DNA from: a virus
IMG/VR virus record: IMGVR_UViG_3300027649_000002
Coordinates: 1 to 31,457 of that record
Strand: one strand, 5' to 3'
Length of the DNA: 31,457 nt
Positions within the stretch are counted from its first letter, which is position 1. Each line of letters starts with the position of its first letter. Positions 1 through 31,457 of the stretch are shown piece after piece. Below the pieces are notes generated by a model. That model was not told the origin of the DNA. It saw only the letters and a list, made by a program, of their open reading frames with translations, and did not search any database. Position numbers and translations under genes: made by a program.

Positions 1-43
1 AATGTCTTTGAGCATGGCGCCGTCGGTTTCCGCAAGCTCGGCA
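1..43. repeat. Left copy of 43-bp terminal direct repeat
   Basis: Identical base for base to positions 31415-31457. The ParB-like reading frame runs through the join without a break when the two copies are merged. This shows a circular molecule, or a circularly permuted genome assembled to closure, of 31,414 bp. A 43-bp overlap is short for a biological terminal repeat, so an assembly overlap is the simpler reading. Confidence 0.97.
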
Positions 44-8394: not shown

Positions 8395-8585
8395 TTACCG
8401 CCCTCCGTGAGAACGTAAAGCGGCTCATTCCAGCGGCTCGTCCCGATCCGGTGAATCACGCCGAGTTCGCGCAGGATGCTGGCGATCCAGCCGCCGGCTT
8501 CCCAAATTTCCGTCGCGGTCATTCCCGCCGTCGGGCAAAACTCCGCGAAAAACTCGCGGGCATATTTGATTTCGTCGGCGTTCAC
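8391..8585 (-). CDS. Small winged-helix-like protein, 64 aa
   Basis: GTG 8585 overlaps the TGA of the lysozyme-like gene (GTGA). The pattern MTATEIWEAGGWIASILRELGVIHRIGTSRWNEPLYVL fits a compact winged helix: helix, turn, recognition helix and two wing strands. It may be a small regulator. No exact family named. Confidence 0.72.
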   Translation of the reverse strand: MNADEIKYAREFFAEFCPTAGMTATEIWEAGGWIASILRELGVIHRIGTSRWNEPLYVLTEGGK

Positions 8586-8914
8586 TTGGCACCCCCGTAA
8601 ATCCTTCTGACGTTGTTTTTCCAGTTGCGATTCCCCACGGGGTCGGCGGCAATCGGACACCACCGGTCTGCCATGTGGTCGATGAATTCGCCGGGTTTTC
8701 CCGCTTGTTCCCAGCGTGTCCAGTTGTTTCGGATGGAGACGAGGACGATGCGCCGAGCGTGGGCCTCGTCGCGCACCTTGACGCTTAGGACGCCGTATGG
8801 GCTGCGGGCTTTCGCGCCGCCCTCTGCTCGGTAGATCGCATCCGCCAGCCTCTCTGGGTCGGGATGGCCGGCGAGCGCGGGCAGAGCCGCGAATATTAGT
8901 ATGAGGTATTTCAT
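8582..8914 (-). CDS. Exported lysozyme/transglycosylase-like protein, candidate endolysin
   Basis: Residues 1-15 (MKYLILIFAALPALA) form a Sec signal peptide with an ALA cleavage site. The mature part has AIYRAEGGAKARSPYGVLSV with a candidate catalytic Glu31, then RIVLVSIRNNWTRW, FIDHMADRWCP and NRNWKNNV. I recall this layout from small conserved proteins of phages and prophages thought to cleave peptidoglycan, but I cannot name the family with certainty. Export by signal peptide would give a holin-independent endolysin. It sits in the early-type block rather than beside the membrane proteins at 12.9 kb. ATG 8914 overlaps the upstream TGA. Confidence 0.68.
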   Translation of the reverse strand: MKYLILIFAALPALAGHPDPERLADAIYRAEGGAKARSPYGVLSVKVRDEAHARRIVLVSIRNNWTRWEQAGKPGEFIDHMADRWCPIAADPVGNRNWKNNVRRIYGGAK

Positions 8915-12168: not shown

Positions 12169-12501
12169 TTATTTCAAAGCGTTAATAAATTGAATCAACC
12201 CGTTGGCAAGGTTCACCAGTTCAGTTGTTGCCGGCTGGTTGAAATCCATCTTTGCCATGACTGCCGCAATGGAAAAGGCGGATTGGTATTGCCCGTAAAG
12301 AATCGCAATGCGTTCGCGCTGGGCGGCGTTGACCTTTCCAGCGTTGAATTGCACCCGGTAAAATTCAAGCGCAAGCACCGTAGCCGATTGAACAGAGGCT
12401 AAGGACTTATAGCCGATCTGTTGCGGCGTGTTAGTTTTGCAGCCAGTCGTCATTGCCATTGGCATTACCGCAAGGGCTATGATTAGGAGAATGGTTTTCA
12501 T
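12169..12501 (-). CDS. Lipoprotein, possible outer-membrane spanin candidate, 110 aa
   Basis: Residues 1-21 (MKTILLIIALAVMPMAMTTG) end in TTGC, an acceptable lipobox with Cys21. The mature part is helical (SLASVQSATVLALEFYRVQF, AQRERIAILYGQYQSAF). Phage lipoproteins near holin genes are often outer spanin subunits, though this one is longer than Rz1-type peptides and is not Pro-rich, so a spanin role is weak. ATG 12501 overlaps the upstream TGA. Confidence 0.65.
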   Translation of the reverse strand: MKTILLIIALAVMPMAMTTGCKTNTPQQIGYKSLASVQSATVLALEFYRVQFNAGKVNAAQRERIAILYGQYQSAFSIAAVMAKMDFNQPATTELVNLANGLIQFINALK

Positions 12502-12949: not shown

Positions 12950-13123
12950 TTAGTTATTTTTCTTGAGCAAACGATAGAGGGTAATGCAACCGATGATTAC
13001 GCCAAGGGTCAGCGAGAACAGGCGCAAGCTGGTTTCAATGCCCGGCATAAACGAAACGGAGACGCCCGCAACCGAAGCTCCGAAGCCCACCGTGCCATTG
13101 ATGATGGTGTTGGTGTGGTTCAT
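12950..13123 (-). CDS. Holin-like protein with two membrane spans, 57 aa
   Basis: Two hydrophobic segments, about residues 7-27 (IINGTVGFGASVAGVSVSF) and 32-51 (LRLFSLTLGVIIGCITLY), are followed by a basic tail RLLKKNN. This fits a class II holin, which opens the inner membrane at lysis. ATG 13123 follows directly on the TAA of the upstream exported protein. Neighbouring membrane peptide and lipoprotein fit a lysis cassette, although the lysozyme-like gene is at 8.6 kb. Confidence 0.65.
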   Translation of the reverse strand: MNHTNTIINGTVGFGASVAGVSVSFMPGIETSLRLFSLTLGVIIGCITLYRLLKKNN

Positions 13124-13396
13124 TTAGTCCTCAACAATTTTCACGCGAACAGTTTCCATTACGCCGATGGTCACGTCGTTGGTGCCGTCGCGGGTCAGCA
13201 TCACGCGAATCAGTGTGGTGTTAAGTTTCTTGGAGTCAATGGCATCCCAAATCGCATTTAGTTGGTCGGTGCGGTTAGCGTTGAGTTTGACGTTGCGAAA
13301 AAATTCGCGGTGCATGGGTTGCCCAAAGTCTTGAGCAAAGGTGTAACCCGCGACGAGCGCGGCGAGGATTGACAAGTAGATGATGGGTTTTTTCAT
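13124..13396 (-). CDS. Small exported protein, 90 aa
   Basis: ATG 13396 (MKKPIIYLSILAALVAGYTF) gives a Sec signal peptide, cleaved near FAQ. The mature part (DFGQPMHREFFRNVKLNANR and onward) has no known domain. A start further upstream would need TTG inside the adhesin gene. It is the third consecutive gene here with a signal peptide, and ends directly before the holin-like gene. Confidence 0.75.
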   Translation of the reverse strand: MKKPIIYLSILAALVAGYTFAQDFGQPMHREFFRNVKLNANRTDQLNAIWDAIDSKKLNTTLIRVMLTRDGTNDVTIGVMETVRVKIVED

Positions 13397-13404
13397 AATG
13401 GTAT

Positions 13405-15339
13405 TTACGGCCAAGCGGTCATGGTGACCTTGTTAGTGGTGCGAGTGCCTGCGGAATTTTGGAGAACGATGCAAAGATTGGTTCCATCGCTCCACAGGTG
13501 GCCACCATGGCCACTCAACGAGGCCGGTGCGGTAAATGGATTAGAGGCTGGCAGGATAAATCCGTTTGTAGAAATTACAACTCCCGGAACGATCAGATTG
13601 TTTGTGGCCCGGCTGTTTCCAAGCGCATCCACTATTTCCAAGCTGGCTCCATTTCTTTTCAGTGCAGGAAAGTTTGTATTACTCGGGCCGAAAATAAGCC
13701 GACCAAACGTAGTGTTGTTAATATCGCGTATCTGAATTACCCCGACTTCTGCGGCTGGGGTAAGTGAAATCAATCCTCCAAGATTTCCTCCAAAGTAACT
13801 TGAATAGATGTTTGGCGCATTAACTATGAACGAAGCATTAAAAGTATGTGCTGAAACGGAACTCACTCCATTTACCGCTATATTGCCCGTTGTAATGATG
13901 GTTCCGTTTGTAATTTGCACCGTGTTAGCGGTAGTTCCAACAATGAGGTTGGTGACAACCAGCCGATCAGAATACATCTCCCCCAAATTAGTCAGGCCAC
14001 GGCTCATGCCGTTGGTGTTGGCAATGTAGTTAGTTCCTGACGAAGTAATTGTCCATGTCCCAGCGTTGTTGCTGGAGACGATAATGCCAAAGCCAGCACC
14101 GATGATGTTCGTTGCCGTATTGACCTGTGCCGAGAGGTTGGTGAGGGCCGCGCTGCCGAGTTGTTTGGTGCCAATGCTGTTGGTCAGCCCGGCCAATGCG
14201 GTCTGCTGCACGGCGTTGGTGATTTCGGCTTGCACAACCTGATTAGAAAGCGTGTTCAAATTCAAATTTGTCAGCCCAGAGCCGTTGCCGGTGATCGAGC
14301 CATTGCCGCCGAAAACAAAGACGTTTGAGGAGTTGCCGAGGCGAAATTGATTGGCGGCGGTGGCGAGAGAGTTGTATCCGATGGCCGCGCTATTGTCATA
14401 GCTCGCGTAAGCGTTGCCGCCCAACGCGGTGCCGTAGCCGCTGGCCACAGAGTAGTAGCCGACAGCGGTTCCAAAATTTCCCGTGGTGCTATCGTCGCCG
14501 CCCGATTCGGCACGAGCATTGTATCCTAATGCTAGGGAAAAATTTCCGCCCGCATACGAGGATAAGCCGAATTTTTGGCTGTTGGTGCCGATGTCACCTG
14601 GGCCAGACAAGGTGCCGCTGACGTTCACATTGGTCAAGACGGCACCCCGGATGGTGCCGTTGGTGAGGAGGCCGATGTTGCCGGAAATTTCCCGCGCACC
14701 TGAAATGACCGGGTTGATGTTTGTGCCCATGCGCTCGGTAATGTTGGTGAGCGTGCCGGTAACAATGGCGAGATTGTAGGCCGTGCCGTTGGTAATGTCC
14801 AGCTTGGTCACGGCGAGGTAATTGCTGGCCACCGCAGGCGATGTGCCGGTAACTACGGTTCCAGCGATGGTGACGCGTCCAGCGTTGGTGGTAAACACGA
14901 TGTTGGTGCCAGCCACGGAAGGGTAGCGTAAATCAGAGACGGTGATGGAATAGGATCGCGTCGAGCCTGAGTTGGTGGCGTAGTTACTGACGAAGGATGT
15001 CGCGTCGTAGTTGCTCGATCCGGTCGCCGTGGAAGGAATGGTTGAGGTGAACGTCGTGATGCTGCCCAAGGCGGTTGCAAGCTCCACGCGATAGCTGCCT
15101 TCCTGCATGTTGGTGACGATACACTGGCCCGCGAAAGTGTTGGTGTAAATCCTCGGCGTCTTCACCATGAAGAATGAGCCGATGGTTGCGTATTCAAGCG
15201 GCGTGATCTTGACCGGCTTGTTCGTCACGCTGTCAACTTGGTAACCGAAATCCAACCAGTTAAAAGTAACCGTGTTAGTCAACGGTGCGGCCTGCGCGGA
15301 GATCGCAAACGCGAGAAATAATGAGGTGAGAAATTTCAT
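13405..15339 (-). CDS. Exported trimeric-adhesin-like fibre protein with YadA-type head
   Basis: A 644-residue protein. Residues 1-17 (MKFLTSLFLAFAISAQA) form a Sec signal peptide with AQA cleavage. Residues 20-250 are Thr-, Asn- and Ser-rich. Residues 258-343 carry YadA head repeats (SLALGYNARA, TAVGYYSVASG, TALGGNAYAS, AAIGYNSLAT), which form a trimeric left-handed beta-roll in adhesins. Residues 350-359 are GNGSGLTNLN, a motif I link with Verrucomicrobiota surface proteins. No translocating beta-barrel anchor is visible at the C-terminus. It overlaps the 160-residue gene by four bases. It could be a tail fibre or an exported adhesin. Confidence 0.82.
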   Translation of the reverse strand: MKFLTSLFLAFAISAQAAPLTNTVTFNWLDFGYQVDSVTNKPVKITPLEYATIGSFFMVKTPRIYTNTFAGQCIVTNMQEGSYRVELATALGSITTFTSTIPSTATGSSNYDATSFVSNYATNSGSTRSYSITVSDLRYPSVAGTNIVFTTNAGRVTIAGTVVTGTSPAVASNYLAVTKLDITNGTAYNLAIVTGTLTNITERMGTNINPVISGAREISGNIGLLTNGTIRGAVLTNVNVSGTLSGPGDIGTNSQKFGLSSYAGGNFSLALGYNARAESGGDDSTTGNFGTAVGYYSVASGYGTALGGNAYASYDNSAAIGYNSLATAANQFRLGNSSNVFVFGGNGSITGNGSGLTNLNLNTLSNQVVQAEITNAVQQTALAGLTNSIGTKQLGSAALTNLSAQVNTATNIIGAGFGIIVSSNNAGTWTITSSGTNYIANTNGMSRGLTNLGEMYSDRLVVTNLIVGTTANTVQITNGTIITTGNIAVNGVSSVSAHTFNASFIVNAPNIYSSYFGGNLGGLISLTPAAEVGVIQIRDINNTTFGRLIFGPSNTNFPALKRNGASLEIVDALGNSRATNNLIVPGVVISTNGFILPASNPFTAPASLSGHGGHLWSDGTNLCIVLQNSAGTRTTNKVTMTAWP

Positions 15340-15818
15340 GGTGTGCCGAGAGCTTGGCCGATGGCCGTCCAGTAATTCGTGGTCAAATTGGTGATCGAGA
15401 TGCCGCCGACGAAATTGCTTTTCGTTATGCTATACACCGCTGCCACCGCTCCGGTTGACGAGCTGGTGAACGTCACGATTGGCGCGTTGCTGTAGGCGAC
15501 GGCGAAGGTGTTCGTAAATTGGCTGATGTTCTGATTTGTGAAGCTGCCGGACTGAATCCCGACGCTGGAACGGAAGCCGCTGGAGACGTTCGTGCTTGGC
15601 ACACGCAGGAGGATGTCGGTGCCTAGGATGATCTCGACGAGGTTGCTGGCCGTCCGCATCTGGTTGGTGTTCGCGGTCACCTTGAATGATACGAGGTTGG
15701 TTGACGCGCTGGTGACGCTGATCGGATAGCCGAACGGGCGCGTGGCGGCGTGAACGGAAGCGCAAAGAATAAGCAAACAAAAGGTGATGAATGTTCTCAT
15801 AATGTTTTGGAATGTCAT
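15336..15818 (-). CDS. Exported fibre-tip-like protein, 160 aa
   Basis: The N-terminus (MTFQNIMRTFITFCLLILCA...VHA) is a Sec signal peptide. The C-terminal 60 residues (FAVAYSNAPIVTFTSS, then VYSITKSNFVGG, then YWTAIGQA) match the layout of phage fibre-tip beta-domains that end with a WxAIG-type strand, similar to the gp53-like C-terminal domain. ATG 15818 overlaps the upstream TGA (ATGA). It is translated just before the YadA-type protein and may be its partner or chaperone. Confidence 0.75.
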   Translation of the reverse strand: MTFQNIMRTFITFCLLILCASVHAATRPFGYPISVTSASTNLVSFKVTANTNQMRTASNLVEIILGTDILLRVPSTNVSSGFRSSVGIQSGSFTNQNISQFTNTFAVAYSNAPIVTFTSSSTGAVAAVYSITKSNFVGGISITNLTTNYWTAIGQALGTP

Positions 15819-16084
15819 TGATTAGGTTGAATTATGCAAGCGGAAATTGCAGTCCAGCGCGGCGGCTTGTCGGGGCATTTAGAAGCAGGCTTGAACAATT
15901 TGACGCCGCCGCAGCCGCACACCTTGCACGACGACACGCGCCCGCCCGCAAGCTGGACGTGAGGACATTGCAAACACTGGCCCGCCCGGTAGTCGAGCGA
16001 TGGCGTCGGCACCGGATCGTTTCCATTTTCAATCCAGCGAAACGCGGCACGATTTGAACCGGCGGACATAAGCGGGTGGTTCAT
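15815..16084 (-). CDS. Cys-rich zinc-binding-like protein, 89 aa
   Basis: Residues 36-39 (CLQC) and 53-58 (CKVCGC) plus a later CPDKPPRW form a likely zinc ribbon. I have seen similar small proteins with a CGC and a CP-x-x-x-W ending in phage tail regions, but cannot name the family. ATG 16084 overlaps the upstream TGA. Role in tail assembly is inferred. Confidence 0.7.
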   Translation of the reverse strand: MNHPLMSAGSNRAAFRWIENGNDPVPTPSLDYRAGQCLQCPHVQLAGGRVSSCKVCGCGGVKLFKPASKCPDKPPRWTAISACIIQPNQ

Positions 16085-16761
16085 AAATAGGTTTCGTGAA
16101 AAATAAATGTTGGCGCGTCGCTGTTAATTGTCGGGCCAAAATAAGTGCCGGACAAATCCGTGCCAATCTTTTGCCACTCAAACGTCCCGGCTGCGACTAA
16201 ATTGGCTTGCACGTTTCGTGTTCCAGCCGTTGAGTTTGAGTAAATCAACCCATCATAGATTCCATCAGGATGATGATGCACCAGCCCGTATGTGACAAGG
16301 AGCGGTTTTGCCGGGTCGTCCGGTTGCCACTCAACTTCCAGCAGCCAGCATACGTCGTAAAGTGCTTCATCGTCGCACGCTTGCGGTTTTATTGTGAAAT
16401 AAAATTCTCCGCCGACGCCGCCGGTGATGGTCTCGTTTGCCGTGTATTTGGCATAGTAAGCACTAGCAGGGTCGCCGACGCTCATTGAGCCGCCAGCCGC
16501 AAATCCGCTGTCGATGAAATCCTGCATGACCGAATTCGGTAGAAGCTCAACCTCGTAGTCGTCGCCTTCCGACGTATAGCTAATCCACACAGAATCGGGG
16601 TTTGGCGGCGTCAAGCTGGATGGGAAATTGTAGGTCACATCATACTCATCCCAAGTTTGATTTGGGTAAGGCGTCAGTTCGAGTGACCAATTAACAGAGG
16701 GAATGCAACCAGTAGGAACACCACATGCCTGACTACAGCATTGAAGTCTCGGCAGGCTCAT
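16081..16761 (-). CDS. Tail/baseplate-region hypothetical protein, 226 aa
   Basis: Begins MSLPRLQCCSQACGVPTGCI, with five Cys in 20 residues, then a beta-rich acidic body with many Pro and Tyr (WISYTSEGDDYEVELLPNS; FYFTIKPQACDDEALYDVC). No family recognised. It lies between the 618-residue fibronectin-type protein and the fibre genes, with ATGA overlaps on both sides, so it is probably a virion tail-tip protein. Confidence 0.72.
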   Translation of the reverse strand: MSLPRLQCCSQACGVPTGCIPSVNWSLELTPYPNQTWDEYDVTYNFPSSLTPPNPDSVWISYTSEGDDYEVELLPNSVMQDFIDSGFAAGGSMSVGDPASAYYAKYTANETITGGVGGEFYFTIKPQACDDEALYDVCWLLEVEWQPDDPAKPLLVTYGLVHHHPDGIYDGLIYSNSTAGTRNVQANLVAAGTFEWQKIGTDLSGTYFGPTINSDAPTFIFHETYL

Positions 16762-18614
16762 AATGTCGGCTCGTCTGTCTCCTGTCTGCTCGGCAGGATT
16801 GCGTATTTCGTCACGTCGTCCACGCAGACGGCGTATTCACGCAGGCGCAACGCATCGGCCACGCTGGCGTTAATGTCGGCCCGCTGGAACTGGCGGACGT
16901 AGGCAATGGTGTTCTCGTCGTCGTCGTTGTAGGTGGGTAAGGCGTAAGCAACCTTGGTGTCAATCACGGCGATCAAATAGAATATGCTGGCCGGGCCTGC
17001 TCCAGGATCGGGCGTCATCGAGATTCCCGCGCTGATCGGTTCGCCCAGAGCGAAATCATCCCATCCGTCCGTCGTGGGATCGGTGCTGTGCCAGACCTCG
17101 GCATGAGTCACGCCCAAATTGTCGAACACAACCTCGATATAGACATAATAAATCTCGTTCTCTGGGACTTCAATTTCAGACGTTGCAAGGTTTGGCGCGT
17201 TAGCGGCGGTAAAGGCGTCGTCAGGATATGGGCATTCGTCGGTGTTCGCTGATGGCACCAAATTTGCGTAGCCGGCAGACACGAAGAATTTACGCCACGA
17301 TCCGGTGCCGGTCGGGTCTGGGGCGCCCCATGCTGTCCGCTCGGTTTTGGAGAGGGAATAGACTTTGAACGGGTAGCGGCCAACCCGCGCTGCTCCAGCC
17401 CGCGCCAATTGGGTAGCTGTAAAAGTAGCGTCGTCTCCGTTAGAATTTCCGGCACTACTTTCGCAGCAAACGCGGAAGTGGTAGGTTTGGCCAGGTTCAA
17501 GCGCGTCTATTAGCGAACCAACAGGTAGTTCAACGGTTAAAACTTCCCAGAACCGGAGCCCGTTAGGTAATTGAATGCGGGCTGTTTCGTGGCCGTAATC
17601 GTCGGTCAATCCGTATTGAAACCAGACGGTGGTGACAAGGTTTCCGCCGTCAACGGTTGCGTTGAGGATTGCGCTTGTTTGCGTTATTTCAGTTGCCGGT
17701 TGAGTTATGGCGAACGGCTCGTAATCGTCGTCCCCTTGGCGTCGAACTGGGCCGGGGCAATTGATGTCTGACCTTTGAAATTGACGGATGTCTAATCGGT
17801 TCACTTCGGAGTCGTCATCGTATGCTTCTCCACCGTCGAGTTCAGCAGCGGCAGCAGTCAACCATGCGGCGTGCGCGTCAATGACGGCCACAAGGAAATA
17901 GACGACGCCGGGCTGCGTTGGCTCAGTCATTGCCAGAGCCATGTCAGTCCCTCGGCTGGAGTCGTTACCGCCTGGGCCTCCGTAAAAATACCGAAACGAG
18001 AGCCAGCCGTGTGCGGTGCGTGGATCGGCTGAATGGAGCAACTCGGCAGAAATGCAGCTCTCCCCCTTCGGCATCCAATCTTGATCGCCAGCATTTGGAA
18101 TGCGGTCAAAAGTAGCGCGAATGTAAATGTAATACATCGAAACCGTTAAGGGGTCGGTTTGCTCTGGGATTTCGATTTCGCACAAGGACAATACCCCTCC
18201 AGTCAGCATATCGCCAAACTCACGATCCGGTTCATCTGGGTAAGGGTTGGGAGTTACATTTGGAACGACCGCACTTCCTGCCTCACCATGAATCCGAAAC
18301 AAATTTACGTAGCCTTCGCGCACAAACACCCTACGCCACGAGTGCGATCCAATCGACAATTGCGGCCCAGCATCTGTTGCAAGTTCGCTCCGCATTCCAT
18401 CGGAAATTGTAAAGACCTCAAGAGGATAACCCGTTTCTAAGATTTTGGTTGTCTTAGTTTTGGAAGTCAATTCAGCGTGCCATCCGGTTGTTCCTTCAAC
18501 GATGCGAATGTCTTTAGAGCTGCGCGGCGTGCGCTCGACCATGTTCCGAAAAATCTGACGGAACAAATTAGCTAAGTTCCCAACGGCTGACGGAATTTTG
18601 AACAGCGGCGTCAT
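16758..18614 (-). CDS. Tail-tip protein with fibronectin III domain between two duplicated modules
   Basis: A 618-residue acidic beta-rich protein. Residues 62-285 (YPLEVFTISDG, HSWRRVFVREGYVNL, YFLVAVID, RLDIRQFQRSDIN) and 412-582 (YPFKVYSLSKT, GSWRKFFVSAGYANL, FYLIAVID, AYVRQFQRADIN) are related copies of one unknown module. Between them, residues 300-401 have the fibronectin III pattern (ATVDGGNLVTTVWFQYG, then ALEPGQTYHFRV). Residues 586-610 form a short tail. The architecture suggests a tail-tip or receptor-contacting protein. No catalytic motif seen. It is in the usual place after tape measure for tip proteins. Confidence 0.8.
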   Translation of the reverse strand: MTPLFKIPSAVGNLANLFRQIFRNMVERTPRSSKDIRIVEGTTGWHAELTSKTKTTKILETGYPLEVFTISDGMRSELATDAGPQLSIGSHSWRRVFVREGYVNLFRIHGEAGSAVVPNVTPNPYPDEPDREFGDMLTGGVLSLCEIEIPEQTDPLTVSMYYIYIRATFDRIPNAGDQDWMPKGESCISAELLHSADPRTAHGWLSFRYFYGGPGGNDSSRGTDMALAMTEPTQPGVVYFLVAVIDAHAAWLTAAAAELDGGEAYDDDSEVNRLDIRQFQRSDINCPGPVRRQGDDDYEPFAITQPATEITQTSAILNATVDGGNLVTTVWFQYGLTDDYGHETARIQLPNGLRFWEVLTVELPVGSLIDALEPGQTYHFRVCCESSAGNSNGDDATFTATQLARAGAARVGRYPFKVYSLSKTERTAWGAPDPTGTGSWRKFFVSAGYANLVPSANTDECPYPDDAFTAANAPNLATSEIEVPENEIYYVYIEVVFDNLGVTHAEVWHSTDPTTDGWDDFALGEPISAGISMTPDPGAGPASIFYLIAVIDTKVAYALPTYNDDDENTIAYVRQFQRADINASVADALRLREYAVCVDDVTKYAILPSRQETDEPTL

Positions 18615-19424: not shown

Positions 19425-20744
19425 TTACTCAAATACTGTGGCTATATCAGCGCGTGGAACCGGATCGGCATCTCGCATGTTCTTAATTGTTTGAGTCAAT
19501 TCTTTCAATGCGTTGGTGTTCTGTTGCGTGTTGTAAATCATCGGGTTATAGGCTTGAACTCCGACGCCCAGATTGGCCTTAGCTGCCGAGTCAATGGAAA
19601 TTGGGCCGATGCCGCGAGTCGTCTGGGAATCAAGTCCGGATGCAATGCCGACGGCTTCCTTTTGCAGTTTGATGGATTCAAGGTCTCCTTTGGTCGTGCC
19701 TTTGGCGTTCTCGACTTTAGCCTGTTCTATTAGATCAAGAATTTCCTGCCGCTTTGCAATGTTCTGGTCAAGCGGGTCAAGCTGGGCAACGAGAGCGTTT
19801 TGAATTACCTTGTCAAGATCGGCTTGTGCATTTGCGACTTTGATGGGTCGCTCGTTAACAGGATATAGTTTCTCGGTTGATTTTTCTTCCGTGCCGGTCA
19901 TCCCAATGCCTCCGCCAACGTCGTATTTGTTTTTTTTGTCCGTGCCTTTTATTGCTCCGCCAACCACAGCGGTGAGTAATTCTGTGCCTAGATATTGTGG
20001 CCCAGCGGCAATAGTCGCCCCCAATGAGGTCCTTGAATTTATAGCTTTCTGCGCTGCTTTTACAAGTTCTGACATCACGCCGGCAATCGGTTCGGAGGCG
20101 ATGGAATGCCAACTGTTTTTCATTCGCTCAAAAGCCTTGTCCGCCTTGTCAATTTCGTTTTTCGACTCTTCGCTGATAAGCGGAATGGCTCGGCCTTCTC
20201 CAAGTTCTTTCAACCCCTGAATAAACTTGCCGCCGCTTTTGCCAAATAGCTCCTGCATGTCTGACATCATGGCGGGGTTCACATTCATGTCCTTCATGGC
20301 AACTCCAATTTTCTTCATCAGATCGAAGTTGGTGACGCTGGCATTGTTTAGGTCGTCCATTGAAACGCCGTATCTATTAAAAGCAGCAAGCTTGTCGTCA
20401 TCCCCAACAAACGCGCTATTTCGCGCCGAAGCCATTTTCATTAAAGCTGCTTCTGCGTCACCGGCTTCCAGCCCGAACATTTTGAACGCCTGAATCAATC
20501 GCTGCGTTTCTTCAAACGTCGTGTTCTGACGGTCGGCAAAATCGTCAATGGCAAGAGCCGCTTTGGCCACGTCCAGAATCAGCGTCTTGAAAGCCTGAAT
20601 TGAAACGTAGCTAGCCGCCAATGATTTCAGATCGCCGGAAATCTTGCCGGTCAAGCGGTTCATCGTTTTGCCAACGCGCCCCGCCGCCCGCTCAAATCCG
20701 GTTGAGTCGCCGTCAATTACGATCTTTGTTCCGAGCGTGCTCAT
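19425..20744 (-). CDS. Short tail tape measure protein
   Basis: A 439-residue protein. Residues 1-60 (TKIVIDGDSTGFERAAGRVG, KISGDLKSLAASY) match the N-terminal pattern of lambda-like tape measures. Helical coiled regions follow (FEETQRLIQAFKMFGLEAGD; KADKAFERMKNSW), with a hydrophobic segment around 240-265. Tape measures set tail length at about 0.15 nm per residue, so the tail would be short, near 65 nm. ATG overlaps the upstream TGA by four bases. Confidence 0.85.
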   Translation of the reverse strand: MSTLGTKIVIDGDSTGFERAAGRVGKTMNRLTGKISGDLKSLAASYVSIQAFKTLILDVAKAALAIDDFADRQNTTFEETQRLIQAFKMFGLEAGDAEAALMKMASARNSAFVGDDDKLAAFNRYGVSMDDLNNASVTNFDLMKKIGVAMKDMNVNPAMMSDMQELFGKSGGKFIQGLKELGEGRAIPLISEESKNEIDKADKAFERMKNSWHSIASEPIAGVMSELVKAAQKAINSRTSLGATIAAGPQYLGTELLTAVVGGAIKGTDKKNKYDVGGGIGMTGTEEKSTEKLYPVNERPIKVANAQADLDKVIQNALVAQLDPLDQNIAKRQEILDLIEQAKVENAKGTTKGDLESIKLQKEAVGIASGLDSQTTRGIGPISIDSAAKANLGVGVQAYNPMIYNTQQNTNALKELTQTIKNMRDADPVPRADIATVFE

Positions 20745-23478: not shown

Positions 23479-24633
23479 TTAGCCGATGATGCCGGCCACG
23501 TGCTCAGGCTTCACAACGGAAACGCCCCATGCACAGGCGATCTCGAAATGCACCATGCGGAAGCCGGGATACATTGCGAGTTCAAACGAGATTCCGCTGC
23601 GAGGGTCGGTGATGGTCGCACGATCAATCGCAAGGTCATTCGGGACGCTGGCCGGAAGGCGAGTCGAGAGGACGATGGCGTTGCGGCTGAAGGCCACGTT
23701 GCGGGCCGAGGTGCCGAAGACCGTGATGGCCGCGTTATCGGCAACCGCAGCCTGAAGGCCGGGAGCATTGATCACAATCGTGCCGCTGGCCGAGGTCGAG
23801 CCGGTCGCAACCACATATTTCTGCGCTCCACCAGTCGTGCCGGTGATGCTCAGAATGTCGCCAGCAACAATGCCGGTGGTGTTGACGGTGCCGGTGTCGA
23901 ACGTAATGGTGGTGTCGCCAACCGCGCCCGCGCCGTTGAACAACGCGCCGGTCATTGCGCCCGCCGTGGTGGACTGGATCTTCGCGGACTGGCGAAGGTT
24001 GAAGTTGTAGAGGTCGCCGAGCGTTCCCTGACGGAGCAAGTTGCCGCCGTCGCCGGCCTCGTTGACTTTGTAGAGGTTGGAGGTGCTGCGAAGAGCCACG
24101 GCAGCGGTCGTGTTGAACACAGCCGAACGGTCAGAAGAGGGTGCTCCGTTGTCGTCGAGGATTTTCTGGGCCTGCGCGAAATCGGCGAGAACCGGCGCGG
24201 TGCCAGCAGTTGCACCGAAGAAACGGCTGACGCCATTTTTCGCAGCCACGGCGCAATCGACTTCGATTTCGTTCACGGCGGCGCGGATGGCCTGCGCGAT
24301 CTGGCCCTGCTGCAACGACAGATAACCGGGGCCGTTGTTCACGGACTTAATTTCTTCCTGCGTCCAAGAGAACGGAAAAGCCCGCTGCTTAGAAATGCTG
24401 TGCGTAACATAACCGATAGTCTGGTAAGCCGCCGACGGGAAGCTCATCGCCGGGGTAATGTCTTTGCCGGCAGAGTTAGAAGGCGTGATCGGAATGCGAA
24501 TGTTTTGGTTTGCGGCGATGGTGTCAGCGGACGGGTCAAGCTGAACGGCTGGAATGAATCCGACCAGTTCGCGGGAGACAACATCCAAAGCGCGGTAAGC
24601 GTCTGGAATCAAATTTGTAAGAGTGTTAGGCAT
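23479..24633 (-). CDS. Major capsid protein, P22 coat type
   Basis: A 384-residue protein. N-terminus MPNTLTNLIPDAYRALDVVS and the segment QNIRIPITP match the P22 gp5 coat family (arm, then the early strand). The middle contains a Gly/Thr-rich insertion (residues about 225-315: AGDILSITGTTGGAQKYVVA and neighbours), likely the I-domain position. The C-terminus (ISFELAMYPGFRMVHFEIAC) fits the P-domain. Slightly shorter than the 430 residues of P22. It would assemble with the scaffold candidate upstream. The leader before ATG is A/T-rich without a Shine-Dalgarno site. Confidence 0.85.
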   Translation of the reverse strand: MPNTLTNLIPDAYRALDVVSRELVGFIPAVQLDPSADTIAANQNIRIPITPSNSAGKDITPAMSFPSAAYQTIGYVTHSISKQRAFPFSWTQEEIKSVNNGPGYLSLQQGQIAQAIRAAVNEIEVDCAVAAKNGVSRFFGATAGTAPVLADFAQAQKILDDNGAPSSDRSAVFNTTAAVALRSTSNLYKVNEAGDGGNLLRQGTLGDLYNFNLRQSAKIQSTTAGAMTGALFNGAGAVGDTTITFDTGTVNTTGIVAGDILSITGTTGGAQKYVVATGSTSASGTIVINAPGLQAAVADNAAITVFGTSARNVAFSRNAIVLSTRLPASVPNDLAIDRATITDPRSGISFELAMYPGFRMVHFEIACAWGVSVVKPEHVAGIIG

Positions 24634-31228: not shown

Positions 31229-31457
31229 TCAGGTCGTGAACTCATGTTTGCACGCGGGACAACTGATCGGTTTCTTTTGGTCAAGCCGTCCTTGCTCTTC
31301 TGCGGTTGCCGGCTGGAAGTCTGGCGGTTGGTAAAAATTTATGACCCGCTCTAACTCACCCGCATCAAACCCGGTCACGTCCATGTCATACGCTCCGGTG
31401 TCGAGGTCGCCGAGAATGTCTTTGAGCATGGCGCCGTCGGTTTCCGCAAGCTCGGCA
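31229..31457 (-). CDS. ParB-like nuclease-domain protein, C-terminal part
   Basis: Codons 120-180 of the gene described at positions 1-357, with the 43-bp terminal repeat included at its right end. The part reads through LGDLDTGAYDMDVTGFDAGE and ends in a single CPACKH knuckle and FTT. It stops seven bases before the start of the small terminase gene, so ParB-like, small and large terminase genes are in one transcript. Confidence 0.85.
   Translation of the reverse strand, partial: AELAETDGAMLKDILGDLDTGAYDMDVTGFDAGELERVINFYQPPDFQPATAEEQGRLDQKKPISCPACKHEFTT
31415..31457. repeat. Right copy of 43-bp terminal direct repeat
   Basis: Identical to positions 1-43, inside the ParB-like gene. It marks the closure point of the circular sequence. 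Confidence 0.97.

Follow-up and report, generated by a model that had tools for sequence, protein, structure and literature searches.

Tail fibres set the host range of a phage and are taken to be products of cytoplasmic assembly. The window, which here means the whole stretch of 31,457 nt (~31.4 kb) that was analysed, encodes three successive proteins of 160, 644 and 90 aa whose N-termini resemble Sec signal peptides and whose genes lie where tail fibre genes are usually found. The question raised by this locus is why a phage would send fibre-like proteins out of the cytoplasm, and whether such proteins could still become part of the virion.

Genome organization and position of the exported genes

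An exact 43-bp direct repeat was found at the termini of the window (1-43 and 31415-31457), and these identical ends indicated a complete phage genome, circular or terminally redundant. The structural genes were all located on the minus strand and comprised terminase, head protease, head protein, tape measure, tail-tip candidates, the exported set and a holin-like gene (Table 1). Three tail-tip candidates of 267, 618 and 226 aa followed the tape measure. The intergenic distances were -4 bp at each step from the 226-aa gene through the 89-aa and 160-aa genes to the 644-aa gene, 8 bp between the 644-aa and 90-aa genes, and 0 bp between the latter and the holin-like gene. The genes for the 160-, 644- and 90-aa proteins are tightly coupled in one operon, which is placed after the tape measure and tail-tip genes and before the holin-like gene, in the tail fibre or tailspike position. 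The ATG at 13396 gives the last of them 90 aa, while the ORF list gives 96 aa from an upstream TTG. Family searches returned no significant family for the 89-aa protein and no match for the 57-aa holin-like protein.

Table 1. Features of the window discussed in the text.
Feature	Position	Strand	Remarks
Major head protein, phrog_283	23479-24633	-	E=4e-73; served as bait for relatives
Tape measure protein	19425-20744	-	phrog_2276, E=1.7e-7
Tail-tip candidates of 226 and 618 aa	16081-18614	-	without signal peptides; 3' of tape measure gene
618-aa tail-tip candidate	16758-18614	-	72% identity to L005 over 566 aligned residues
89-aa protein, non-exported	15815-16084	-	upstream of 160-aa gene; 4-bp overlap at both ends
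160-aa exported protein	15336-15818	-	signal peptide 15747-15818, residues 1-24
644-aa exported fibre-like protein	13405-15339	-	signal peptide 15289-15339
N-terminal beta-domain of 644-aa protein	about 15010-15288	-	
YadA-head cluster of 644-aa protein	about 14371-14538	-	fibre-like C-terminus beyond
90-aa protein, likely signal peptide	13124-13396	-	signal peptide 13334-13396
57-aa holin-like membrane protein	12950-13123	-	from sequence reading; directly 3' of exported set

Two other minus-strand genes also had conspicuous N-termini. The product of 12169-12501 had a lipoprotein-like start (MKTILLIIALAVMPMAMTTGC) and could be the outer-membrane spanin in the lysis cassette. A 110-aa protein at 8582-8914 had a strong hydrophobic start (MKYLILIFAALPALAG) and looked lysozyme-like by eye; it had neither a PHROG nor a Pfam match and is a possible exported cell-wall enzyme.

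Signal peptides

Signal peptides were scored with a weight matrix made for this analysis from 18 E. coli signal peptides. In a leave-one-out run, 15 of these 18 scored at least 7.6, and the remaining three scored 3.5, 4.4 and 6.9. The background maximum was 10.0 among 183 phage proteins. The 160-aa protein (16.0) and the 644-aa protein (13.5) exceeded all of these, and judged by sequence their N-termini are classical Sec signal peptides, with cleavage predicted between MTFQNIMRTFITFCLLILCASVHA and ATRP and between MKFLTSLFLAFAISAQA and APLT, respectively. The 90-aa protein, with a hydrophobic core of 2.78 and cleavage predicted between MKKPIIYLSILAALVAGYTFA and QDFG, scored 6.0; this was weaker, though not outside the span of the true signals, so its export is likely but less certain. 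The sequence-only reading had described three successive genes with N-terminal Sec signals, and that description held, less strongly for the third. Wrong start calls were rejected as the source of the signal peptides in the 160- and 644-aa genes, because both starts sit in 4-bp ATGA overlaps and because the relatives carry signal peptides of their own that differ from these.

Domain composition

A YadA head had been proposed for the 644-aa protein. Taken alone, the Pfam YadA_head match fell short of the 25-bit cut-off (17.5 bits, E=0.0055), but the proposal was borne out by homology and by motif clustering. The head region matched the YadA head of the relative P0001 (E=3e-6; profile i-Evalue 2.3e-5), which itself passes the Pfam cut-off, and four YadA-head-like motifs were clustered at residues 270-319, as occurred in 0 of 20,000 shuffles. 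The C-termini of this protein and of its 524-aa counterpart in the relative G002 resembled fibre tips. The 160-aa protein had a sub-threshold Gp53-like_C match in Pfam (E=0.032) and an AlphaFold pLDDT of 38; it is a candidate fibre-tip or lectin-like (H-lectin/Gp53-like) domain, which is unproven. The AlphaFold model of the N-terminal domain of the 644-aa protein reached a pLDDT of 55; neither this model nor that of the 160-aa protein gave a usable fold, and Foldseek found no significant match. The exported proteins of the window had no significant match in the PHROG search, and a tblastn search of INPHARED with the 160-aa and 644-aa proteins matched nothing.

Exported proteins in the closest relatives

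The closest relative, L005, had a head protein 98.7% identical to that of the window. Its 160-aa protein was 98% identical, with 17 synonymous and three nonsynonymous codon changes. Its homologue of the 644-aa protein was near-identical over the first 190 or so residues, and the distal part was replaced by another fibre-like sequence without the YadA cluster. The 226-aa tail-tip candidate showed 91% identity between the two genomes, and the 618-aa protein was the least conserved of the non-exported tail genes compared.

At the same position in the 41-kb genome G002 (head protein identity 75%) lay the gene of a 524-aa protein that bears a signal and contains a true YadA head (E=1.3e-8). Two more genes there encoded a signal-bearing homologue (139 aa) of the N-terminal domain of the 644-aa protein and a 666-aa protein whose start is hydrophobic, and another signal-bearing protein, of 662 aa, was encoded farther along. 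In the 45-kb genome G015, five consecutive coupled genes encoded fibre- or tailspike-like proteins of 508, 132, 1421, 622 and 682 aa, directly 5' of a membrane protein gene. All five N-termini were hydrophobic and four were ordinary signal peptides; the 682-aa protein contained a beta-helix, and the 508-aa protein was 49% identical to the 524-aa protein of G002.

The N-terminal domain had diverged to 24-35% identity among the window, G002 and G015, and a signal peptide was present in each. The signal-peptide form was thus kept while the sequence diverged, as expected of a working export signal. The N-terminus of the 644-aa protein is therefore conserved as a signal peptide among its direct homologues, none of which retained the rest of the protein while lacking the signal. 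Between G002 and G015, a tip of 82% identity was found on a stalk of 35% identity. By these alignments, and by the comparison of the window with L005, the exported proteins evolve in a fibre-like manner, by distal exchange. In the closest relatives, the stretch from the tail genes to the exported set showed no separate non-exported fibre gene.

Survey of Verrucomicrobiota prophages

One relative of the head protein belonged to a prophage in Verrucomicrobia bacterium IMCC26134, and for this reason the host phylum is probably Verrucomicrobiota. That prophage contained no signal-bearing gene of fibre size. In a phrog_283 search of 388 Verrucomicrobiota genomes, the ORFs downstream of the head gene were scored at the matching loci. 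Signal-bearing proteins of fibre size were found in about 9 of 33 prophage loci (L180, L214, L219, L223, L224, L245 and L248 by score; L213 and L218 by inspection), and most loci had none. Locus L257 was left out of the count because its match has no positive n-region.

Several of these proteins matched tail-fibre families. The 870-aa protein of L180 (phrog_6320, 5.9e-64, mainly collagen repeats) and the 593-aa protein of L245 (2.1e-34, collagen repeats) had the lowest E-values, which as collagen-repeat matches are partly compositional. The 849-aa protein of L224 also matched (1e-8), and the 336-aa protein of L214 matched phrog_11393 via its C-terminus (3.2e-15), its gene lying directly 3' of a minor-tail-protein gene (1.1e-9). 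In L223, signal-like starts were present on four proteins (412-833 aa) encoded on either side of the tape measure gene, and two of the four were above the score threshold.

The same exported trio (336/364, 305 and 201 aa) was located 3' of the tail genes in two genomes, at L214 13780-16306 and L218 16596-19206; within the L214 trio, only the 336-aa member had a fibre-family match. A 212-aa protein with a signal-like start was encoded directly after the head-protein gene in L180 (6537-7175), a slot that often holds a head decoration protein. GDSGSP motifs like those of trypsin-type serine peptidases were present in two signal-bearing proteins of tail regions, the 591-aa ORF of L223 (7774-9549, reverse complement) and the product of L248 8626-10629.

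A profile of the N-terminal domain found no match in the 388 Verrucomicrobiota genomes, and a profile of the 1421/666-aa proteins found none in 289. The controls were five Pseudomonadota prophage loci and seven phage records. Their only signal-like matches were a tail-type ORF of L243 without a positive n-region, P106B_28 and one 117-aa ORF. P106B_28 of Rhizobium phage P106B (L259 17836-18627) has 263 aa and a strong signal peptide (13.3), and its gene lies between the head and tail genes. Since the control survey was small, the enrichment in Verrucomicrobiota is suggestive rather than a tested statistic.

An independent case with a virion-anchor domain

The podovirus-type contig L048 is unrelated to the window phage. 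Its fibre gene encoded a signal peptide of 28 aa and, behind it, a podoviral tailspike anchor domain (phrog_26190), the same domain that forms the N-terminus of the tail spike of Xanthomonas phage PBR31 and of others. In IMG/VR homologues of this domain, the protein began at the domain or no more than five residues from it in 80 of 80 cases, without a signal peptide, whereas the exported form is signal-bearing. In L175, the anchor domain was encoded as a separate non-exported protein of 176 aa, followed by a signal-bearing protein of 562 aa.

The three exported proteins of L048 contained 44 cysteines in 1,789 aa, and the four structural proteins encoded just upstream contained none in ~1,812 aa; a fifth ORF farther upstream, of uncertain start, had 10. 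Under an even spread of cysteines over both groups, the probability of this distribution would be about 0.5^44. An oxidising compartment is therefore almost certainly where the exported proteins of L048 fold, which would imply real export and constitutes strong indirect evidence for it in this phage. The mature exported proteins of the window have at most two cysteines, so the disulfide argument does not apply to the window phage itself.

How exported fibres might reach the virion

We tentatively favour the explanation that the 160- and 644-aa proteins, probably together with the 90-aa protein, are parts of tail fibres or receptor-binding structures that are exported by Sec, fold in the periplasm and join the virions at lysis. 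The exported set would be sent through Sec in late infection and its signals removed, and the mature proteins would fold in the periplasm. They would remain there for want of an outer-membrane anchor, since a protein without one is expected to stop in the periplasm of a two-membrane host. Lysis would then mix periplasm and cytoplasm and allow the fibres to attach to tails. Export of the signal-bearing proteins is well supported as a whole, and in the window phage it is what the signal peptides predict; periplasmic location, trimerisation and attachment to virions at lysis would follow for the window phage under this explanation. Its support comes from the fibre position of the genes, the signals kept despite divergence, the fibre-family matches in L180, L245, L214 and L224, the L048 case, and distal exchange. 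The occurrence elsewhere of fibre modules and a virion-anchor domain behind signal peptides suggests that such proteins still reach virions, or that the modules have been reused. Counted against it were the 618- and 226-aa proteins as alternative candidates for the receptor-binding tip, the absence of PHROG matches in the window, and the majority of prophage loci without a signal-bearing gene of fibre size. We also know of no pathway that would bring periplasmic fibres onto tails.

A second explanation, which we consider possible though doubtful, is that the exported proteins are secreted accessory adhesins, lectins and beta-helix depolymerases that are not part of the virion and act in the periplasm, or extracellularly after lysis. 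There they would serve for superinfection exclusion, for blocking receptors on debris or for loosening the polysaccharide of the host. The signal-bearing beta-helix enzyme-like proteins in the block (682 and 622 aa in G015, 662 aa in G002) agree with such a function, and exported phage-borne YadA-head adhesins do exist (the Eib proteins, which P0001 matches). Signal-bearing YadA-head proteins without a YadA anchor were also found on Verrucomicrobiota chromosomes (L149, L150, L161 and L163), and the phage modules could thus have been borrowed from the host. However, the modules are common to tail-fibre families, L048 keeps a virion-anchor domain behind its signal peptide, and several phages would be left without an obvious fibre gene. 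Periplasmic fibres were favoured over secreted accessory proteins, a distinction that sequence alone does not make.

It is unlikely that the hydrophobic N-termini are retained, serving to attach the fibres to the tail or to hold them at the inner membrane until assembly. The 1421-aa protein of G015 (score 1.7) and the 666-aa protein of G002 (4.9) had no clean cleavage site, as this explanation would predict, but clear sites were present in the 160-, 644-, 508-, 132- and 662-aa proteins of the window and its relatives, and the cysteine enrichment in L048 points to passage across the membrane. The main proposal of the sequence-only reading, that a trimeric autotransporter adhesin is displayed on the surface of the infected cell, drew on the signal peptide and YadA-head motifs of the 644-aa protein and is now very improbable, because neither this protein nor the 524-aa protein of G002 had a Pfam match to the YadA anchor, and their C-termini are fibre-tip-like, whereas anchored adhesins seem, by eye, to be present on Verrucomicrobiota chromosomes (C-termini of L145, L146, L148 and L152).

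Extended from the window to the wider set, the periplasmic-fibre explanation becomes more speculative. It would state that tail fibres are put together outside the cytoplasm in Verrucomicrobiota phages and in one or more further phage groups, with Sec export, periplasmic folding, disulfides in some cases, and addition to finished virions at lysis; we regard this as conceivable, with somewhat greater reserve.

Comparison with known systems and implications

Export of a protein encoded in the tail-fibre region is known from the lambda Lom-type moron. Lom is a single outer-membrane protein, whereas the window encodes a set of fibre-like proteins. The trimeric autotransporter adhesins (type Vc), including the Eib adhesins of E. 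coli prophages, share a Sec signal and YadA-head repeats with the 644-aa protein, and the Eib adhesins are likewise phage-borne. The window set differs in that it lacks the C-terminal YadA anchor beta-barrel, so it would not display itself, and in that its genes lie inside a tail operon and encode several different exported fibre-like proteins. Phage fibres and tailspikes (phrog_6320, phrog_11393, phrog_2631 and phrog_26190) resemble the exported sets in their collagen or fibre modules, their position after the tail genes and their distal exchange. Late phage proteins are known to pass through Sec before lysis, as do the signal-peptide endolysin Lys44 of fOg44 and the SAR endolysins (PMC6116005), but these are cell-wall enzymes and the window set is fibre-like. 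No precedent for Sec-exported tail fibres was found in the literature searched, the coverage of which was partial, so this absence is weak evidence of novelty.

If the fibres are made in the periplasm, virion assembly would have a step after the onset of lysis, and disulfides and periplasmic chaperones would be usable by fibres. If the proteins are soluble decoys instead, they would make up a hitherto undescribed group of adhesins and depolymerases that phages secrete. Either outcome would account for a recurrent gene arrangement of which no description was found in the literature searched.
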